Positions 284-28,318 of a stretch of 43,223 nucleotides of DNA are shown piece after piece; the first letter of the stretch is position 1, and every line of letters starts with the position of its first letter. The DNA comes from a virus. The position numbers and the translations under genes were made by a program. The stretch is from the IMG/VR virus record IMGVR_UViG_3300020394_000421, positions 1 through 43,223 of that record. The stretch is one strand, 5' to 3'. The notes beneath the pieces are model-generated. The model was not told the origin of the DNA. It did not search any database and saw nothing but the letters and a program-made list of their open reading frames with translations.

Positions 284-1150
284 CTATGCGTTTGCAAGTT
301 TCTCAAAATATGACAGAGTATCATCTGTTGATTCTGCCGATTCAGTCTTCGTTTCTTTGGTATCCGACTTCTCAACTTCATCAATAGTTTCTGCGACATT
401 ACCGACCACAGTTTTACCACTTAAAACAATGTCGAGTCTAGTTTTTAGTTCGTCATATGATTTAAAGTTATCTGCAGCTGTAAACTCTTTGAGAGGATAT
501 GCTTTTTGACATACTGCTTCGATTTTTGCCTCATCCTCAAATAGTTTAGAAGATGACTCAAAATCCGATGTATCATAGTTCCAAAAACCAGCAACCTTTC
601 TAATCTTCAACTTGAAGTTAGCACCACTAAATGGGTCAAATGGATTGACAGGTTGTTCATCTTGAAACTCTGGTTGCATCGCAGCCAAAAGTTTATCATA
701 TATTTTCTTACCATATCTGAATAAGAAAACCTTACCTTCATTCTCTGGGTGTTTAGGGTCTGTTACTACATAAACGTTAGAGTAGTATTGTAACTTTCTC
801 TTTTGTTTTCTAGCAATTTCTTTATCAGACTCAGCACCTGTATTCCAAAGAGCCGTATTATATTCTGATACGGGGTCTTTCTGTCCAACAGTAGTTAGTG
901 AGTTTTCAATGTACCACTGACCAGTAGGTCCTTGAAATGCATGAGAATAAACTTTTGCCCATGGTAATTCTTCACCATGAACAGCTGGTAAGAAACGAAG
1001 TACAGCATAACCATTGCCAGATTTATCTAACTCTGGTTTCCATAGTCTCTCGTCTGTATATGATTTTTTCTCTTGTGGTTGATTTTCTTTAGTAACCGCA
1101 CCAAGCAATTTATCTAAAGAATTATTTTTACGTATGTTGTCTAATGACAT
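284..1150 (-). CDS. 32: ssDNA-binding protein gp32
   Basis: 288-aa homologue of T4 gp32 (301 aa), which coats single-stranded DNA and organises replication, recombination and repair. The N-terminal basic segment (NIRKNNSLDKLLG) is followed by the core-domain motif LDKSGNGYAVLRFLPA (residues about 41-56) and the YSNVYVVTDPKHPENEGKVF block typical of the OB fold. An acidic C-terminal tail (EVEKSDTKETKTESAESTDD) is the usual protein-interaction tail. The T4 zinc-binding Cys-rich loop is replaced by IENSLTTVGQKDPVSEY, with no cysteines there, so this form probably does not bind zinc. It follows 59 and 33 in the T4 order and has both a sigma70-type and a late-type promoter upstream. Confidence 0.96.
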   Translation of the reverse strand: MSLDNIRKNNSLDKLLGAVTKENQPQEKKSYTDERLWKPELDKSGNGYAVLRFLPAVHGEELPWAKVYSHAFQGPTGQWYIENSLTTVGQKDPVSEYNTALWNTGAESDKEIARKQKRKLQYYSNVYVVTDPKHPENEGKVFLFRYGKKIYDKLLAAMQPEFQDEQPVNPFDPFSGANFKLKIRKVAGFWNYDTSDFESSSKLFEDEAKIEAVCQKAYPLKEFTAADNFKSYDELKTRLDIVLSGKTVVGNVAETIDEVEKSDTKETKTESAESTDDTLSYFEKLANA

Positions 1151-1186: not shown

Positions 1187-1756
1187 TTAATTTGTATTAT
1201 TATTTATACAAGTTAATAGTGCCATTCTACACCTTTCCTTGTCTATTGTCAAGAACTTTTTATAGTTATTCATAAGATTTTTTATGTCTGTCCATATCAA
1301 GTCTTCTTGCCAATTCTTTTGATATTGAACTAAGTCGTCCAATATAATCATTGTTTCCAATGAAACTCTTTTACCTAGATACTCTCTTAATAATAATGGA
1401 TGAGTATCTTTCCACTCAAATAATTCCTCAAACTTATCAGCGTATGGTTCTATCTCGTTCTTAAAAGTGTATGTGAGAGACTCGGTTCTCTTCTTCCATT
1501 CTGTATAATATTCGTCCTCATACTTACCTACCCATCCACCTTTGACAATTACATAGTTTGCTATGAAATAGTTCTCTATTTCTTTTTTAGTCTTTAGTTT
1601 TCTAGCTAGTCTTGCAAAGAAAAACCTATCTTTTCTTTTGTAAAAACTATCTCTCTTTATCTTGGTCTTACCAGCAAACTTATGGTAATCATACTTGTTT
1701 TTAGAAAAGTGAGCTTTGATTGCACAATATGTTAGATATACATCTGCCGCATCCAT
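1187..1756 (-). CDS. 59: DNA helicase loader gp59
   Basis: 189-aa protein recognised as T4 gp59 (217 aa), which binds forked DNA and loads the gp41 helicase onto gp32-coated strands. The clearest match is the N-terminal half: YDYHKFAGKTKI followed by FYKRKDRFFFARLARK, then YFIANYVIVKGGWVGK, parallel to T4's YDVIKYNWCMRV, YQKRRDKYFFQKLSEK and LIFISNLVANQDAWIG. A SLETMIILDDLV segment matches the T4 FETFILLDSFL helix. Its ATG overlaps the gp33 stop by one base (TAATG), indicating translational coupling. The last codons contain the promoter elements that serve gp32. Confidence 0.9.
   Translation of the reverse strand: MDAADVYLTYCAIKAHFSKNKYDYHKFAGKTKIKRDSFYKRKDRFFFARLARKLKTKKEIENYFIANYVIVKGGWVGKYEDEYYTEWKKRTESLTYTFKNEIEPYADKFEELFEWKDTHPLLLREYLGKRVSLETMIILDDLVQYQKNWQEDLIWTDIKNLMNNYKKFLTIDKERCRMALLTCINNNTN
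1201..1208 (-). promoter_or_regulatory. T4-type late promoter box upstream of gp32
   Basis: Perfect TATAAATA on the minus strand, about 50 nt before the gp32 start. T4 late promoters consist of this single -10 element, read by sigma gp55 with co-activator gp33 and the sliding clamp. Confidence 0.6.
1224..1252 (-). promoter_or_regulatory. Host-type promoter for gp32, inside the gp59 coding end
   Basis: TTGACA (1252-1247), 17-nt spacer, TAGAAT (1229-1224) on the minus strand. It lies in the last codons of gp59, so gp32 can be made independently of 33-59. Confidence 0.7.
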
Positions 1757-1986
1757 TATATTGGTAACTTACCAACTCCACTATCACTTTTAATTAATTT
1801 AAGAGTTGAAGCATCTGCTTCTATTTTTTGTTTCAACGCTTTTGTAATTAATTTTGTTACTGTTTCAATTTCCATTTTATTTTTATCACAATATAACAGT
1901 ACTGAGTCTAAGTGATTTAAATTATTTTCACTAGAAATTTTTTCTATCTCTAATGAAAATTTTTTAGGAGTTAGTTTTGTAAGCAT
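1756..1986 (-). CDS. 33: Late-transcription co-activator gp33
   Basis: 76-aa protein placed exactly where T4 carries gene 33 (33-59-32). T4 gp33 bridges RNA polymerase beta-flap and the sliding clamp at late promoters. The internal pattern FSLEIEKISSENNLNHLDSV then IETVTKLITKALKQKIEADA parallels T4 FIIEKMVEEFGMSYLEATTA and ETQFAKFIPSGIIEKIQSEA. The ATG at 1986 is preferred over the adjacent TTG at 1989. The start lies inside the 3' end of the rubrerythrin gene. Assignment rests on position plus this weak pattern. Confidence 0.75.
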   Translation of the reverse strand: MLTKLTPKKFSLEIEKISSENNLNHLDSVLLYCDKNKMEIETVTKLITKALKQKIEADASTLKLIKSDSGVGKLPI

Positions 1987-2389
1987 CAAGAGTTCTCTGA
2001 AATTTACCTGCGTGAGATTTTTCAGCTTTTGCTAGTGTCTCAAACCAGTCACCAATTTCATCAAAACCTTCTTCTCTAGCTGTTCTTGCCATACCAGGAT
2101 ACATGTCTGTATATTCATGTGTTTCACCATGTATTGCAGATTTTAAATTGGCTTCTGTTTCGCCCATTGGTTCACCAGTTGCTGGATCACCGACCTCTTC
2201 CAAATATTCTAAATGTCCATGTGCGTGACCAGTTTCACCTTCTGCCGTGCTTCTAAATACTGCCGCAACATCTGGTGCGCCTTCTACATCTGCTTTTTGT
2301 GCAAAATAAAGATATCTTCTATTTGCTTGACTTTCACCTGAAAATGCATCTTTCAAGTTTTGTGCTGTTTTAGTTCCTTTTAAACTCAT
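1964..2389 (-). CDS. Rubrerythrin-like diiron protein (ferritin-like domain only)
   Basis: 141-aa four-helix diiron protein of the rubrerythrin family, which normally reduces peroxide in oxidative-stress defence. Visible motifs are SGESQANRRYLYFAQKA (first Glu), EGETGHAHGHLEYL (ExxH), HGETHEYTDMYPGMA and AKAEKSHAGKF (second ExxH). The C-terminal rubredoxin domain of classical rubrerythrins is missing, and the protein has no cysteine at all, so an external electron donor would be needed. Base composition looks more GC-rich than its neighbours, suggesting acquisition from a host. It starts about 27 nt after the tmRNA coding piece, with AAGGAAAT as ribosome-binding site, and its 3' end overlaps gp33. 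Confidence 0.9.
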   Translation of the reverse strand: MSLKGTKTAQNLKDAFSGESQANRRYLYFAQKADVEGAPDVAAVFRSTAEGETGHAHGHLEYLEEVGDPATGEPMGETEANLKSAIHGETHEYTDMYPGMARTAREEGFDEIGDWFETLAKAEKSHAGKFQRTLDAYKTNS

Positions 2390-2415
2390 AATATTTCCTT
2401 TTTTTATATTAAAAT

Positions 2416-2560
2416 GGCAAGTTTCTGTTGCCAGGTACTTGCCAACCCCGACAGGGTTAACCGCTAGGTTTAAGCTGCCATTGCAAAATTATTGTTTGCA
2501 CTTATGGTTGTGAATCCTCAGCAAAGATACTCGTCAGTAGTCGAAACCTATTTCACCCCC
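2416..2560 (-). ncRNA. ssrA: tmRNA coding piece with proteolysis tag
   Basis: Begins with the 5' acceptor strand at 2560, continues through the TTTCGAC signature and a resume context ATAAGT before GCA (2499-2497). The tag encodes A-N-N-N-F-A-M-A-A and ends in TAA (2472-2470). Downstream lie a hairpin AACCC/GGGTT (around 2460-2446) and a 7-bp stem GGCAAGT (2443-2437)/ACTTGCC (2422-2416) with CTG..CAG in its loop, the likely pseudoknot/3' end region. The exact 3' end is not defined. Confidence 0.85.
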
Positions 2561-2581
2561 TAAATCGAGGTTATCTAGGTT

Positions 2582-2640
2582 TGGTGGAGGTGTAGGGTAT
2601 CGCACCCTAGTCCTTACTGCTTTTCTACAAAGCTTCACCG
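2582..2640 (-). ncRNA. ssrA: tmRNA acceptor piece
   Basis: Contains a 5-bp T-stem TAGGG (2609-2605)/CCCTA (2597-2593) around a 7-nt loop TGCGATA, the 3' acceptor strand CACCTCC, discriminator A and CCA ending at 2582. The segment CAGTAAG (2620-2614) can pair with CTACTG of the coding piece, with one bulged A, to form helix H2. A small hairpin GCTTT/AAAGC (2633-2619) precedes it. The 5' processing site near 2640 is approximate. Confidence 0.85.
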
Positions 2641-2650
2641 AATTCAAATA

Positions 2651-2658
2651 TATTTATA
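2651..2658 (-). promoter_or_regulatory. T4-type late promoter box for tmRNA
   Basis: Perfect TATAAATA on the minus strand, overlapping the -10 region of the host-type promoter at 2653-2682. The predicted start lies only a few bases before the acceptor piece. This gives the tmRNA a route to expression both early and late. Confidence 0.55.
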
Positions 2659-2682
2659 CCACGATTAACCTTGATTTGTCAA
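2653..2682 (-). promoter_or_regulatory. Host-type promoter for tmRNA-rubrerythrin-33-59
   Basis: TTGACA (2682-2677) and, after 18 nt, TATAAA (2658-2653), or GTATAA after 17 nt. Predicted start near 2646, just before the acceptor piece. The preceding gene ends at 2692, so there is no room for a riboswitch leader. Confidence 0.75.
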
Positions 2683-2691
2683 GGGTTAATT

Positions 2692-3138
2692 TTATAATTC
2701 TTTGATTAAATTGATTGATATAGAATTAGTTTCTTGACCATGCTCTAGTATTTGAAATCCTTTACCAGTTGCTAATATACATGCCATATTGTATTGACTA
2801 TGCCATTCAAATACTGTAAATGTTCCATTATTAAAGTTAACAGCTGTAAAAATTATTACACTAGTTTTTTCACCATCAGGTTTAACTAGTTGACCAGCAC
2901 CCATAAATGCTCTGTATTCTTCTCTAAGTTCTAATATAGTGATGAAGGCATCACCATTCTGACAAAGTGTTGGTTTTTGTACAAAAAAAGGATTAGGACC
3001 TGGTGGTACAGTTTTTTCAATCTCTGGTTTAATACCTTCAGACCAATCAGTTTCAGGTGCTTCATTTGCGTATGCACTATTAAATAATAATACACTAACC
3101 AGTAGGGTTAATATCTGCAAAAATCGGTTCATTAACAT
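2692..3138 (-). CDS. Secreted/periplasmic protein of unknown function
   Basis: About 148 aa from MLMNRFLQ (alternative in-frame start at 3132; the frame is open further upstream to 3168). The N-terminus is a clear Sec signal peptide: basic start, hydrophobic LTLLVSVLLF, and an AYA-N cleavage site. The mature part has two cysteines about 70 residues apart (TLCQNG, NMACIL) that could form a disulfide, and a TSVIIFTAVNFNNGTFTVFEWHS stretch rich in beta strands. I do not recognise the family with certainty. The 5' end overlaps the exonuclease gene by about 40 nt. Envelope location is inferred from the signal peptide. Confidence 0.8.
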   Translation of the reverse strand: MLMNRFLQILTLLVSVLLFNSAYANEAPETDWSEGIKPEIEKTVPPGPNPFFVQKPTLCQNGDAFITILELREEYRAFMGAGQLVKPDGEKTSVIIFTAVNFNNGTFTVFEWHSQYNMACILATGKGFQILEHGQETNSISINLIKEL

Positions 3139-3793
3139 TTTCTTTCTGAAAGTCTGATACAATTTCATCTATTATAGGAACATACTCTTTTTTGTCCTTA
3201 ACAAACTCTTGTACCACACCATCCTCTGTTACGACCAAAATCACAATCTGATCGATTGATTGAGCAGTACGCTCTTCAAACATTTCAGCATATGCTGACG
3301 CCTGAATGTAGTAGTTTTGATTATATTCCTCTTTACGTTCCTTTGCTGAGGTTTTGAAGTCAATAACTGATAAGACACCATCGTATTCGGCAATGCAATC
3401 AACTCTACCTGCTAATTTGTATTTATCAGAATACAAAGCTATTTCTTGAGCCCGAATGTTGTCAATCTTGCATAGAACCTTTGTGCTTAATTGTTGGAAC
3501 AAACAATAAGGTAAGAAATCCTTTTTATGCTTGTCTATATCAAAATTATTATTAAGATAGTCTTCACACATATGGTGAACCTTGGTACCTCTTGACGCAG
3601 CAGTTCTTGATATATAGTTTGCTACATCTTCACCAACTCGTTTACGCCACTCAAACAAACCTTTTTTGTTTCGTGTAGATAATACGGTAGTTATAGATGG
3701 GTACTTGTTACCATCTGGTGTTACATAATATCTTTTCTTATCAATAGTTTCTGTTACCAACTCTGGTAACGTCACAGGTACATGTTTAAACAA
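3095..3793 (-). CDS. PD-(D/E)XK exonuclease (RecB/Cas4/MGME1-like)
   Basis: 232-aa protein with the nuclease core GRVDCIAEYDGVLSVIDFKTS: Asp132 in motif II and Asp145-x-Lys147 in motif III. An upstream RGTKVHHMCEDYL helix (His74, Glu77) matches the RecB-type N-terminal motif, and a later Q-rich helix (YNQNYYIQASAYAEMFEE) matches motif QxxxY. This is the typical layout of single-domain RecB-family exonucleases that digest DNA in phage recombination or host DNA breakdown. The start ATG overlaps the end of the lysozyme gene by 8 nt. Substrate polarity cannot be read from sequence. Confidence 0.85.
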   Translation of the reverse strand: MFKHVPVTLPELVTETIDKKRYYVTPDGNKYPSITTVLSTRNKKGLFEWRKRVGEDVANYISRTAASRGTKVHHMCEDYLNNNFDIDKHKKDFLPYCLFQQLSTKVLCKIDNIRAQEIALYSDKYKLAGRVDCIAEYDGVLSVIDFKTSAKERKEEYNQNYYIQASAYAEMFEERTAQSIDQIVILVVTEDGVVQEFVKDKKEYVPIIDEIVSDFQKENVNEPIFADINPTG

Positions 3794-4235
3794 TTCCTAT
3801 TACCCTCATTCTATCACATAGACGTTCAGCTCTATTAGTAACTTGTCGATACCAACCTGAGTCTTCCATCTGATTTGCAGCTTCTTCCCAATTTTGCTCA
3901 TCTACAGCTGCTTTCATTTTTTTAAATTTGCTTAATCTAGGACGACCCATATTAAACATCATATTTGCTATTATTTGTTTTGCTTCTTCTGGTAGTGTAT
4001 CAAAGTTAGGATAGAGAATTTTACACTCATCTATCATAACTTGACAATCTTTATCAAATAATTCGTTTACTCTTTCCTCAGATACAGGTGTTCCTACTGG
4101 TTGACCATATTCTGGGTCTGATTCTAAAATCAAATGTCCTATACCACAAGTTGGGTAACCCAAATGATCTTTATATATTTCGTATTTTACTCCCTCGTCT
4201 ATTGCGAGTTGCTCTCTTAATTTTACTATATCCAT
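3786..4235 (-). CDS. T4-type lysozyme (endolysin, GH24)
   Basis: 149-aa muramidase that cleaves the glycan backbone of peptidoglycan. The catalytic triad of T4 gpE (Glu11, Asp20, Thr26) is present as Glu14, Asp23 and Thr29 in DEGVKYEIYKDHLGYPTCGIGH. The C-terminal lobe keeps MMFNMG and SGWYRQVTNRAERLCDRMR, matching T4 NMVFQMG and SRWYNQTPNRAKRV. No signal peptide is visible, so it would need a holin. Its stop overlaps the exonuclease start, and it follows PhoH by a one-base TAATG overlap, so it is embedded in a replication/repair cluster rather than beside the spanin-like genes near 34 kb. Confidence 0.95.
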   Translation of the reverse strand: MDIVKLREQLAIDEGVKYEIYKDHLGYPTCGIGHLILESDPEYGQPVGTPVSEERVNELFDKDCQVMIDECKILYPNFDTLPEEAKQIIANMMFNMGRPRLSKFKKMKAAVDEQNWEEAANQMEDSGWYRQVTNRAERLCDRMRVIGIV

Positions 4236-4945
4236 TATTGCTCCATACCAAGACCTAGTTTGGTCTTCTCTATTAAATACTCTCTAATGAAACCAGATCG
4301 TACAATATCTGCGATTGTATATTCTGTCACATTAAAAGACTTCATGTTTTCTACAATTCTTAAAAAATCATGTAGACCATTTCTTTCGTTTGTTCTAATC
4401 AAGTCTGTCTGAAAAAAATCACCAGCAAATGCTATTTTAGAATTTTGACCTACCCGTGTTATGATAGTATCTAGTTCATGAAAGTTTAGATTTTGACACT
4501 CATCCACAATTATTATAGAGTTATCAAATGTCAATCCACGTAAAAATGAAGTTGACATAAAGTACATTGAACCTTGATTAATCAATCTATCATATAACAT
4601 ATTAAAAGCTTGTTCGTTAGGTTGTTGAAACATAAACTGAACCATGTTTCTATATGGTATTTGATATAATGCTGATTTATCTTCTTCGTCACCAGGTAAG
4701 AATCCTATCTCTCTGGTTGGAATAAGTGATCTAACCAATACAACTTTATCGTATTGTGATTTAATGTTTAAAACATCTTGAAATGCTTTGTAAAGTAAAA
4801 CAAACGTTTTACCTGTTCCAGCTGCACCAAATACAAATTGGTGTTTACCTTCATCCCAAGATTTAAAGACTTGCTCTTGGTTGTCGCCAATAGGCTTCAA
4901 CTTAAGCATATCCTCTAATCTAACATCTGTTTTATTTTTCGACAT
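4235..4945 (-). CDS. phoH: PhoH-like ATPase
   Basis: 236-aa P-loop ATPase of the PhoH family, very common in marine phages; its role in infection is unsettled (phosphate stress and RNA metabolism have been proposed). Walker A is GAAGTGKT (residues 40-47), Walker B is NSIIIVDECQN, and a sensor-type motif KIAFAGDFFQTDL follows. Length is typical for phage forms, which lack extra RNA-binding domains. The ATG overlaps the end of the next upstream gene (4932-5162) by 14 nt. Confidence 0.95.
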   Translation of the reverse strand: MSKNKTDVRLEDMLKLKPIGDNQEQVFKSWDEGKHQFVFGAAGTGKTFVLLYKAFQDVLNIKSQYDKVVLVRSLIPTREIGFLPGDEEDKSALYQIPYRNMVQFMFQQPNEQAFNMLYDRLINQGSMYFMSTSFLRGLTFDNSIIIVDECQNLNFHELDTIITRVGQNSKIAFAGDFFQTDLIRTNERNGLHDFLRIVENMKSFNVTEYTIADIVRSGFIREYLIEKTKLGLGMEQ

Positions 4946-5721: not shown

Positions 5722-6244
5722 ACCAGATTGGAACCTCCCTATTTTTCCATGTTGCAAATTCATTTTTATAATTTATATAGTAGTTCTTATATGCCTGTAT
5801 CACATCATTTGTTTTACAATCTTCTGGCATACATTGTGGTAATTCTGTTACTGGCCCATGTGGAATATTCATTGGGCATCTTTGTAACAAGAAAGATGGT
5901 TTGGCTGCACCATGTATTTTTCCGTATCTATGTTTAAACTCTCCAAGAGTTGCCATATATAAGAAAAATAATTTGTAATAATTACCTGATGTTTTTCTTA
6001 CCCATATACCATCTGGGTGTTTAATGTGTGATGCTTTGTATAAGATATCTTCTCGTTCATCATCTAGTCGCCATCGTTTTGCTTTACGACCAGTCTTAGT
6101 TTCACCGATGTACTCAGTTCCATCAAGAACCCTATGAGCAGTACTCAGTAATTGAGCATACTCAATGGGCATCTTGACAATGTGTTTATCACAATGCATT
6201 TCTGCACATTCACTAGGGTTAGTGTGTAATTCAAATATATTCAT
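5690..6244 (-). CDS. Conserved marine-phage protein with CDKHIVKM motif
   Basis: 184-aa protein starting MNIFELHTNPSECAEMHCDKHIVKMPIEYAQLLSTAHRVL. This N-terminal signature (short strand, then CDKHxVKM and a helix) recurs in T4-like marine phages, but I know no experimentally defined function. Conserved-looking Cys, His and Asp residues near the N-terminus, plus a HxxHPxxxW motif (HIKHPDGIWVRKTSGNY), suggest an enzyme, possibly metal dependent. The -10 box at 6259-6254 ends only 9 nt before this ATG, so a transcript from it would be almost leaderless. Confidence 0.8.
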   Translation of the reverse strand: MNIFELHTNPSECAEMHCDKHIVKMPIEYAQLLSTAHRVLDGTEYIGETKTGRKAKRWRLDDEREDILYKASHIKHPDGIWVRKTSGNYYKLFFLYMATLGEFKHRYGKIHGAAKPSFLLQRCPMNIPHGPVTELPQCMPEDCKTNDVIQAYKNYYINYKNEFATWKNREVPIWYDKGLKELRS

Positions 6245-6253
6245 TATGATTCC

Positions 6254-6282
6254 ACTATACTAGGTTTAAGAGTTGTTGTCAA
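6254..6282 (-). promoter_or_regulatory. Host-type promoter inside the lipoprotein gene end
   Basis: TTGACA (6282-6277), 17-nt spacer, TATAGT (6259-6254) on the minus strand. The -35 is within the last codons of the lipoprotein at 6266-6940. The predicted start lies about 3 nt before the ATG at 6244. Confidence 0.65.
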
Positions 6283-6940
6283 CCTGTTTCTCGATAATGA
6301 TTTCATTAATACCATTTTCAAGATTACTTAGAGATTGTGCCTCTTGTTCTTCTAGTTTTTTATTAACTTCTTTTTCAAGTTCTATCCAAGCCTTTTTAGA
6401 CTTTAGTTTAGAATAGACCATTTGATCTTTCTTGATTCTGTTAATAATTATTTTTTGTGCCTCAGCATCTGAGTATTTTAACAAGACATATGCTGTGTAT
6501 TGAGCACCGCTTGAGTGTACCTCAGTTTTTTCTGGGTAGTAACCTGCAACATCAACAGAAGCGATAACATTCTTCATTACCTTTTCTACCTCTGTAAGTG
6601 TTGTTGCGTTGATGTCATCATCTGTACCTAATCTAGTTACAAAAGATTTTGTCATCGCATCCATTTTACCATTTATTCTATCTGCTAGAACATACTTAGC
6701 ATTCATTGTTGCTAAGTCAACAGATAATTGTAGATCAGGTGCAGTTGCAGCTCCAGCAGTAAAAATTATATCATCCTCTTTAGGAAGTTTTTTATACCAC
6801 TTCGGTATTTCAACTATCGTCTTTTCTACCTTTTTACTTTTGTGTTCAAGTATCGCTGTTGTAGGACTCTTATGTGCCGTACAAGCAGATAAAACTAGAC
6901 CACCAAGAATTAACATTGATATTAGTTTCAATTGTTTCAT
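6266..6940 (-). CDS. LPP20-like outer-membrane lipoprotein
   Basis: 224-aa lipoprotein. The signal peptide ends in a lipobox LSAC, so Cys20 should be lipidated; the next residue is Thr, not Asp, so sorting to the outer membrane is expected if Lol rules apply. The body (IPKWYKKLPKEDDIIFTAGAATAPDLQLSVDLATMNAKYVLADRI in part) has the pattern of the LPP20 family: a WY..P segment, an AGAA/GxG strand and an AxxxAxxxLA helix. A charged coiled coil (KLKSKKAWIELEKEVNKKLEEQEAQ) closes the protein. Its ATG overlaps the stop of the small membrane protein upstream (ATGA). In bacteria, LPP20 proteins accompany surface appendage or curli-type genes. Confidence 0.8.
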   Translation of the reverse strand: MKQLKLISMLILGGLVLSACTAHKSPTTAILEHKSKKVEKTIVEIPKWYKKLPKEDDIIFTAGAATAPDLQLSVDLATMNAKYVLADRINGKMDAMTKSFVTRLGTDDDINATTLTEVEKVMKNVIASVDVAGYYPEKTEVHSSGAQYTAYVLLKYSDAEAQKIIINRIKKDQMVYSKLKSKKAWIELEKEVNKKLEEQEAQSLSNLENGINEIIIEKQVDNNS

Positions 6941-26862: not shown

Positions 26863-27015
26863 CTATTCCTCTTCCTCATCTATATTGTAATCTAAATCAG
26901 TAATCTCTTCGCCACAAAATGGACAATACCTTGGTGAGTATAAGTCATCATCCATTTCATAAGAAACGGTATAACTTGCATCACAATGATTACACAATAT
27001 AGTTTTTTTAGCCAT
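26863..27015 (-). CDS. Zinc-ribbon protein (50 aa)
   Basis: ATG at 27015 overlaps the nrdB stop by 8 nt; stop TAG at 26865-26863. Two CxxC knuckles (ILCNHCDAS and RYCPFCGEE) about 20 residues apart form a classic zinc ribbon, followed by an acidic tail (DYNIDEEEE). Small zinc-ribbon proteins beside nrd genes are common in T4-like phages. Nucleic-acid or protein binding is likely; the partner is unknown. Confidence 0.8.
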   Translation of the reverse strand: MAKKTILCNHCDASYTVSYEMDDDLYSPRYCPFCGEEITDLDYNIDEEEE

Positions 27016-28318
27016 TTACTACCTCATCGGGTCCGTCAAGTGGCGATGAATATAATGATTCTTCGTCTTCGTCATATGCATCATCCCAATCACCACTCAT
27101 ACCAGCAACTTCATATTCTGTAACTCTGTTTTCAAAGAAGTTAGTATGGTCAGCTGCATTTAGAATCCACTCCAACCATGGTATAGGATTCTCTTTTACT
27201 TTAAAGTTAGTTTTTAGTCCTAGTTGTAAAAGTCTTCTATCTGCTATGTATCTGATATATTGTTTTACATCTTTTTTAGGAAGACCTTCTATGTCGCCCA
27301 TCTTGTAAGCAAGATCAATAAACTTATCCTCTAGTTCTACAATCTTTGTTGACATTTCATATATTTTCTTTTTAAAATCATTGTCAACTATTCTAGCGTT
27401 CTCCGAACAGTATGCTCTAAACAAATGAGCAATACCTTCAACGTGCATAGACTCATCTCTTACAGACCATTCTACAATCTTACCACAACCTTTCATTTTA
27501 CCAAATCTTTGAAAGTTTAACAACATTATGAATGATGCAAATAAAGATACACCTTCATTGAATACAGATTTTGCTAGAGCAAGTCCTAAACCTTTTTTAG
27601 TAGTTACATCTGAATCCATCATGTAATCTACTTTGTCGGCCATTTCTTTGTATTCTAAAAAAGCATGAAACTCTTCGTCTGGTAATCCAAGAGTTTCATT
27701 TAATAGTGCGTATGCTCTTTGGTGTATACCTTCTCTGCTTGCAAACGAACCAAGCATATTTCTTACTTCGTTATTTTTAAATTTAGGGATAAATTGATCG
27801 TAATAGTTTTGACCTACTGCTACGTCTGATTGAGTAAATAATCTTAAAACGTTAGTAACAAAATCTTTTTCGGTAGCTGTCATACGTCCACCTTTCCAAT
27901 CTGTTACGTCCTCAGATAAATCAACTTCGTCCTCAATCCAATGAACCTTTTCGTGTTTGACTACCATATCGACCGCCCACGGAAAATAGAAAGGTTTGTA
28001 TGCTTCACTAAATCTAGTTAAACTACCACCTCGTCTTTTTAAAATCTTTTCTGAATTTTCTAACAGTCCAGCATATCCACCAATACGTTCTCCATTAACA
28101 AAAATCTGTGGTACAGAAGCAACTAATCTTACATCTTGTTTTGCAGATTCGCTTCTCTGTAATTGTTCTTGCGTATCATTTACTCTTTGATAGAATTCTA
28201 ATTTTTCTTCCTCTGAAGCCAATTGATGTTCAACATAATCAATACCATGTTCATTAAACCAATTCTTTGCCTGTACACAATAACCACAGGTAGGTGTCGT
28301 ATAAATTTGTACGTCCAT
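27008..28318 (-). CDS. nrdB: Glutaredoxin-NrdB fusion (ribonucleotide reductase beta)
   Basis: 436 aa. Residues 1-95 are a glutaredoxin domain (CGYC at 11-14, VPQIFVNGERIGGYAGL) with an extra charged insert of about 20 residues before the cis-Pro strand. Residues about 110-430 are the class Ia beta subunit: RLFTQSD with the first Asp, SREGIHQRAY with Glu, His and the radical Tyr four residues after the His, FNEGVSLFASF with Glu, and RDESMHVEG with Glu and His. The tail is acidic, ending SLYSSPLDGPDEVVNG. Electron delivery is thus built into the reductase. Similar fusions are known in a few bacteria (for example Francisella). It is 12 nt after nrdA. Confidence 0.96.
   Translation of the reverse strand: MDVQIYTTPTCGYCVQAKNWFNEHGIDYVEHQLASEEEKLEFYQRVNDTQEQLQRSESAKQDVRLVASVPQIFVNGERIGGYAGLLENSEKILKRRGGSLTRFSEAYKPFYFPWAVDMVVKHEKVHWIEDEVDLSEDVTDWKGGRMTATEKDFVTNVLRLFTQSDVAVGQNYYDQFIPKFKNNEVRNMLGSFASREGIHQRAYALLNETLGLPDEEFHAFLEYKEMADKVDYMMDSDVTTKKGLGLALAKSVFNEGVSLFASFIMLLNFQRFGKMKGCGKIVEWSVRDESMHVEGIAHLFRAYCSENARIVDNDFKKKIYEMSTKIVELEDKFIDLAYKMGDIEGLPKKDVKQYIRYIADRRLLQLGLKTNFKVKENPIPWLEWILNAADHTNFFENRVTEYEVAGMSGDWDDAYDEDEESLYSSPLDGPDEVVNG

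Follow-up and report, generated by a model that had tools for sequence, protein, structure and literature searches.

A permuted two-piece tmRNA gene lacking pseudoknot PK1 and preceded by a composite promoter in a T4-like phage genome fragment

The tmRNA gene and its genomic setting

tmRNA releases ribosomes that have stalled and marks the incomplete protein for degradation. The virus record IMGVR_UViG_3300020394_000421, analyzed here over its whole length of 43,223 nucleotides (hereafter, the window), is a marine T4-like fragment akin to the Methylophilales phage Melnitz and the pelagimyophage HTVC008M, and contains an intact permuted tmRNA gene of the alphaproteobacterial type on the minus strand (positions 2415-2645; Table 1). 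ARAGORN calls a permuted tmRNA with the tag ANNNFAMAA, and two Rfam covariance models are covered in full, namely, RF01849 (alpha_tmRNA; 88.6 bits, E-value 7.6e-23, positions 2686-2413) and RF04321 (tmRNA_permuted; 87.8 bits, positions 2634-2470), both above the curated cut-offs of 50 and 47 bits, respectively. A previous, sequence-only reading of this DNA had proposed a phage-encoded, circularly permuted two-piece tmRNA and suggested the covariance model search; ARAGORN and the alphaproteobacterial model both support the proposal.

The hallmarks listed in that reading, that is, the encoded CCA, the T-arm, the TTTCGAC and GGAC signatures, and the tag frame, could each be located, all on the minus strand, which it had left unspecified. 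As it had also noticed, the acceptor piece precedes the coding piece, and the two are closed by a 7-bp acceptor stem with a G-U wobble at the third pair, the alanine identity pair G3-U70. Co-folding of the two pieces yields -69.3 kcal/mol, compared with -52.7 (s.d. 4.4) for shuffled pieces, and the acceptor stem forms between the pieces. The tag frame comprises a resume codon, an Ala-Ala end, and a stop codon. Pseudoknot PK1 is absent between helix 2 and the resume codon; PK1 is usual but not universal among permuted tmRNAs, so that its absence does not disqualify the assignment. Given the intact tag frame, the window gene does not belong with the inhibitory tmRNAs of the DS6A type that lack a coding sequence.

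The 10 annotated genes around the tmRNA locus are all encoded on the minus strand, and several are of T4 type. The tmRNA gene lies between a rubrerythrin gene and an unassigned frame. No terminator is evident between the tmRNA and the phage rubrerythrin gene (region 1964-2413), so that transcription may read on from the tmRNA, as a 5' leader, into rubrerythrin and gp33. Elsewhere, the window encodes a ribonucleotide reductase small subunit with a fused N-terminal thioredoxin-like domain (27008-28318). The tmRNA neighborhood is the same in HTVC008M, Melnitz, and the pelagimyophage Mosig. In the SAR11 myophage HTVC008M (L002; NC_020484.1, locus positions 5946-6287), the permuted tmRNA has the tag ANFNEYALAA and is not annotated in the record; the statement in the sequence-only reading that related pelagimyophages have such a gene is thus borne out.

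Table 1. Features of the tmRNA locus and its surroundings in the window, in the order of transcription
Feature	Positions	Strand	Remarks
PhoH	4235-4945	-	
Lysozyme	3786-4235	-	
PD-(D/E)XK exonuclease	3095-3793	-	
tmRNA promoter, -35 element	2677-2682	-	sigma70-type TTGACA
tmRNA promoter, TATAAATA	2651-2658	-	sigma70 -10 (TATAAA); also an exact match to the T4-type late box
Helix P2, outer strand TGAATTC	2640-2646	-	pairs with 2511-2517 on the coding piece
tmRNA acceptor (tRNA-like) piece	2582-2645	-	transcribed first; 5' end at 2645 predicted; ARAGORN, Rfam
GGAC signature	2610-2613	-	just before the T-arm
T-arm TAGGG-TGCGATA-CCCTA	2593-2609	-	
Acceptor stem, 3' strand CACCTCC	2586-2592	-	pairs with 2554-2560, G3-U70 wobble
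Encoded CCA	2582-2584	-	3' end of the acceptor piece
Spacer between the pieces	2561-2581	-	21 nt; excision expected; empty in the window
tmRNA coding piece	2415-2560	-	begins with the acceptor 5' strand, ends with the 3' pseudoknot stem; Rfam
Acceptor stem, 5' strand GGGGGTG	2554-2560	-	
TTTCGAC signature	2540-2546	-	tRNA-like domain
Helix P2, outer partner GGATTCA	2511-2517	-	
Single-stranded linker	2500-2510	-	ends with CCATAAGT directly before the resume codon
Tag reading frame GCA...TAA	2470-2499	-	ANNNFAMAA
3' pseudoknot	2415-2450	-	stem TGGCAAGT (2437-2444) / ACTTGCCA (2415-2422) around the AACAGAA loop
3' pseudoknot, second helix	2445-2450 / 2433-2436	-	CGGGGT with ACCT; proposed from pairing only
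Rubrerythrin gene	1964-2389	-	directly downstream of the tmRNA, followed by gp33, gp59, gp32
gp33	1756-1989	-	
gp59	1187-1756	-	
gp32	284-1150	-	

Conservation of the phage tmRNA genes

Because whole-gene DNA similarity to isolate phages yielded only fragments (41 bases in the case of HTVC008M), relatives were collected via gp32 and two tmRNA patterns, and 113 distinct phage tmRNA genes were parsed. Both patterns fix a part of the acceptor 5' strand but leave the gene otherwise unconstrained, including the 3' strand and the T-arm; the invariance of the 5' strand is thus partly due to the selection by pattern. The acceptor stem is paired at 7/7 positions, with G3-U70, in 113/113 genes, including those found via gp32 only, so that the loss of pairing in related phages, which the sequence-only reading had named as evidence against a tmRNA, was not seen. 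The T-stem is likewise paired at 5/5 positions in all 113 relatives, through 19 different arms (a mean of 0.71 paired with shuffled partners), and the 3' stem around the AACAGAA loop is kept in 110 of the 113, in 56 different sequences. The tag is intact in every relative, with an Ala-Ala end and a stop codon; 92 tags end in LAA and 15 in MAA, and those of the window clade end mostly in MAA, not LAA.

Because the pairing of the acceptor stem and the T-stem is kept in all relatives, in the latter case via 19 sequences, the gene is under selection. Judging from these comparisons, the phage tmRNA is subject to purifying selection as a structured RNA with a tag and is not a remnant. The opposite possibility, namely, that the gene is a remnant of the host ssrA or of an integration site, picked up by chance and now drifting, is suggested by prophages, which frequently use ssrA as an integration site and contain parts of it (PMC9004378). 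However, the gene is complete and shows compensatory changes in its helices, occupies an identical position in lytic T4-like genomes, and is preceded by a phage-type promoter box that is absent from SAR11 ssrA, so that we regard such an origin as highly improbable. Abundant ocean phages thus maintain a complete ribosome-rescue RNA that is strongly selected, not a stray host fragment.

Loss of pseudoknot PK1

The coding piece runs 61 nt from its first base (G1) to the resume codon in the window and 58-61 nt in the window clade (18 distinct sequences). In comparison, this stretch measures 80-87 nt in another 84 phage genes; in bacteria, it is 83-87 nt (28 alphaproteobacterial genes) or about 82 nt (14 SAR11 genes). 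PK1 is retained in 42/42 bacterial copies examined, and in the longer phage genes, its helix shows paired changes (TTGACT/GGTCAA, TTGGTC/GACCAA, GTGATC/GATCAT, and TTGATC/GATCAA). In the window clade, GGATTCA and the acceptor-piece strand TGAATTC form helix P2 (7 bp), in which base-pair changes are seen; about 11 nt then remain up to the resume codon, which is too short for a pseudoknot, and hence PK1 is absent. A second, unrelated phage type (L250, L324) has a similarly short distance (58 nt), so that PK1 might have been lost more than once.

In Escherichia coli, tagging can remain efficient when single-stranded RNA takes the place of PK1, and the sequence favored upstream of the resume codon is AUAG or AUAA (PMC4236655). 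The window tmRNA has AUAA in this position. A few natural tmRNAs without a part of PK1 are known, for example, in Oenococcus oeni (PMC1168896), and the loss would apparently be tolerated by the tmRNA of the window clade as well. Work on chimeras indicates that the P2-PK1-linker region can be sensitive (PMC4236655), and accordingly, a tmRNA without PK1 might be weak. Such a weak tagger could act as a decoy or inhibitor, that is, compete for SmpB, AlaRS, or ribosomes and thereby damp host trans-translation, as in the case of the tag-less tmRNA of DS6A, which reportedly inhibits the endogenous tmRNA in E. coli (PMC11915505). The DS6A tmRNA, however, is devoid of a tag, whereas here the tag persists in all 113 genes and varies while its ends stay fixed, and PK1 is unnecessary for tagging in E. 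coli (PMC4236655). Inhibition thus seems a poor bet compared with a functional tmRNA, and the PK1-less branch can be viewed as a natural test of the need for that pseudoknot.

A composite promoter

The window TTGACA lies 17-18 bp from TATAAATA. This box is present in 85 of the 113 phage tmRNA genes at an almost constant position 67-77 nt upstream of the CCA end, and in 78 of these 85, TTGACA (5-6 matches out of 6) is located 17-18 bp upstream (9% for random anchors), with the extended -10 TG seen too. Many of the other sigma70-type promoters in the window have a -10 element ending in T (TATAAT, TAGTAT, TAGAAT), and its other five TATAAATA boxes have no matched TTGACA; only the tmRNA promoter contains both elements in full. 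Both are present at gp32 but are separate.

In two stretches of the Melnitz genome, 14 of the 17 same-strand TATAAATA boxes lie 24-69 nt before a gene start, whereas such windows account for 13% of positions. The genes preceded by a box include those for the major capsid, tail sheath, prohead core, and baseplate proteins, none of them with a good -35 element. Melnitz encodes gp55, gp33, and gp45, and the window has gp33; TATAAATA just upstream of the predicted start, in a phage group with these three proteins, qualifies as a T4-type late promoter. T4 late promoters have TATAAATA at -13 to -6 (PMC1524935), and this geometry predicts a start at 2645, six bases after the box, as the 5' end of the acceptor piece. 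The interpretation of TATAAATA as a purely late promoter, though, is too simple given the perfect TTGACA at the 17-18 bp distance. As far as promoter sequences can tell, the tmRNA is probably transcribed both early and late in infection.

As a caution, late promoters in pelagimyophages had escaped detection with the method of an earlier study (PMC7029224). In the Melnitz paper, ssrA is postulated to be expressed early, and non-intergenic promoters were discarded (PMC9004378). The late box may have been overlooked because the gene boundary reported by ARAGORN includes the promoter and non-intergenic promoters were discarded. The SAR11 ssrA genes mostly have TATATT instead of TATAAATA. The composite promoter thus calls into question the early-only timing assumed so far.

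The tag and a probable role in ribosome rescue

Among the SAR11 tags (ANESYALAA, ANDKFALAA, and ANNKFALAA), the last one differs from ANNNFAMAA of the window by two residues. Phage kinship and the likeness of the tags point to a SAR11 host. No SmpB gene was found in the window (a 43-kb fragment), Melnitz, Mosig, or HTVC008M, and we infer that host SmpB is used. The sequence-only reading had suggested either ribosome rescue by the phage itself or redirected degradation tags; the likeness of the tags and the lack of SmpB in the phages checked favor rescue with a host-like tag.

We consider it likely, with a probability of roughly 0.75, that the window encodes a working two-piece tmRNA that would rescue ribosomes during infection using host SmpB and a SAR11-like tag. 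A single transcript would be produced from the composite promoter, by the host sigma70 polymerase early and with the phage late sigma factor, via TATAAATA, later. In the folded precursor, a single acceptor stem would be formed by the coding piece and the acceptor piece with its CCA, and tRNA-processing enzymes, by analogy with the bacterial paradigm, would cut out the 21-nt spacer, leaving two base-paired RNAs. Host AlaRS would charge the tmRNA through G3-U70, host SmpB and EF-Tu would deliver it to stalled ribosomes, and translation would restart at GCA, add ANNNFAMAA, and stop. For the phage, the likely benefit would be to free ribosomes stuck on broken messages during host takeover and to clear their unfinished products as the host loses its DNA and its mRNA, ssrA included.

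A different tag could also change the fate of the tagged proteins, for example, by slowing or accelerating their ClpXP- or SspB-dependent decay, and thereby spare phage products. The phage tags indeed vary substantially (for example, ADQYEYAMAA, GEDNFALAA, and ANFNEYALAA), and the prevalence of MAA over LAA in the window clade fits this possibility. Nevertheless, the AN-N-F-like start and the xAA end are retained in almost all phage tags, in accordance with an unchanged adaptor and protease, and the proximity of the window tag to ANNKFALAA argues that it feeds the proteolysis route of the host tags, not a new one; altered proteolysis is therefore unlikely, though slightly less so than the decoy function discussed above. 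Among the tags, that of Mosig (L084, 3830-4168) was read as glycine-first (GEDNFALAA), instead of starting with the usual alanine resume codon, and that of L218 starts with threonine.

The spacer as a potential cargo slot

The spacer between the two pieces is 5-48 nt long in 27 of the 28 alphaproteobacterial genes and 8-247 nt long in phages. One alphaproteobacterial genome (G093) encodes a permuted tmRNA (L389) with a 232-nt spacer that consists of a repeated element. Among the 77 phage spacers of at least 40 nt, 72 have a stem that joins the spacer ends with 8-9 of 9 bp (55 versions of the stem among the 77), usually followed by TGAT adjoining the coding piece.

Several of these spacers contain apparent genes. 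Membrane miniproteins that share the motif WSICAD form a family encoded in 17 loci, with pN/pS of 0.21 and 0.17 in frame and greater than 1 in the other frames (L054, L056, L059, L072, L082, L239, L243, L245, L255, L256, L277, L278, L286, L293, L295, L300, and L336); these frames often have an AAAGGAG ribosome-binding site inside the terminal stem and a stop codon within TGAT. A 73-residue frame in the spacers of L022 and L328 shows pN/pS of about 0.16, the Melnitz-type spacer frame is covered in the record only as SsrA, and the 110-nt spacer of L302 contains a complete tRNA-Arg(TCT) gene. Within the window clade, L220, which shares the tag ANNNFAMAA, carries a 43-residue frame in a 172-nt spacer, so that the window apparently represents the empty-slot state. 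Searches of the nested miniproteins against Pfam and PHROGs yielded no convincing family; among isolate phages, the Melnitz frame was found only inside features annotated as SsrA, and the membrane family was absent. Genes inside tmRNA spacers were not described in the literature searched (open-licence papers only).

We propose, at even odds, a locus with two outputs, in which the fused early/late promoter would be active throughout infection and the spacer would be a stem-capped cargo slot that releases small RNAs, the window being an empty-slot member of the PK1-less branch. The proposed cargo would be mini-mRNAs for proteins of 26 to 73 residues, often membrane-spanning, or a tRNA. If confirmed, this would be the first case known to us of genes within the discarded part of a tmRNA, and RNA maturation may then double as a route to mini-messages. 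The cargo in the spacers of the relatives is a more surprising feature than the variations of the window gene itself.

Comparison with known systems

Phage two-piece tmRNA is a kind already known since 2022: in the Melnitz study, which linked the Melnitz ssrA to Alphaproteobacteria, 53 phage tmRNAs were judged two-piece, 50 of them marine or aquatic (PMC9004378). This is the report to which the sequence-only reading had correctly referred, and it covers other, mostly marine, phages besides Melnitz. We did not find previous descriptions of the PK1 loss in the window clade, the composite promoter, or the cargo in the spacers of the relatives.

As in the window, Melnitz, Mosig, and HTVC008M have a permuted tmRNA of the alphaproteobacterial type located upstream of gp33 and downstream of the PD-(D/E)XK exonuclease gene. 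In Melnitz, however, the spacer is 142 nt long and contains a miniprotein frame, PK1 is present, the tag has 14 residues, and a glutamine riboswitch immediately follows the gene, whereas in the window, the spacer is empty and 21 nt long, PK1 is missing, and the tag has 9 residues; a search for such a riboswitch at the window locus gave no match, while the one in Melnitz was confirmed. The Melnitz riboswitch (L083, 9522-9570) lies between the tmRNA coding piece and gp33, and thus more likely controls the downstream genes than the tmRNA.

The comparison with the ssrA of SAR11 (Pelagibacterales), which the sequence-only reading had recommended, revealed the same permuted organization, the same acceptor strands, and similarly short, 9-residue tags. 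Unlike the window gene, the SAR11 genes retain PK1; they also have a hairpin at the 5' end, a spacer of 11-13 nt, and a -10 element of the TATATT type rather than TATAAATA. Relative to the RF01849 and RF04321 consensus, the window gene has the PK1 segment deleted and a shorter tag. Mycobacteriophage DS6A carries a tmRNA too, but that one is tag-less and was reported to be inhibitory (PMC11915505), in contrast to the intact tag of the window gene. Compared with these systems, the window tmRNA is a real and conserved one, with a structural variation, the lack of PK1, and a regulatory one, the composite promoter.
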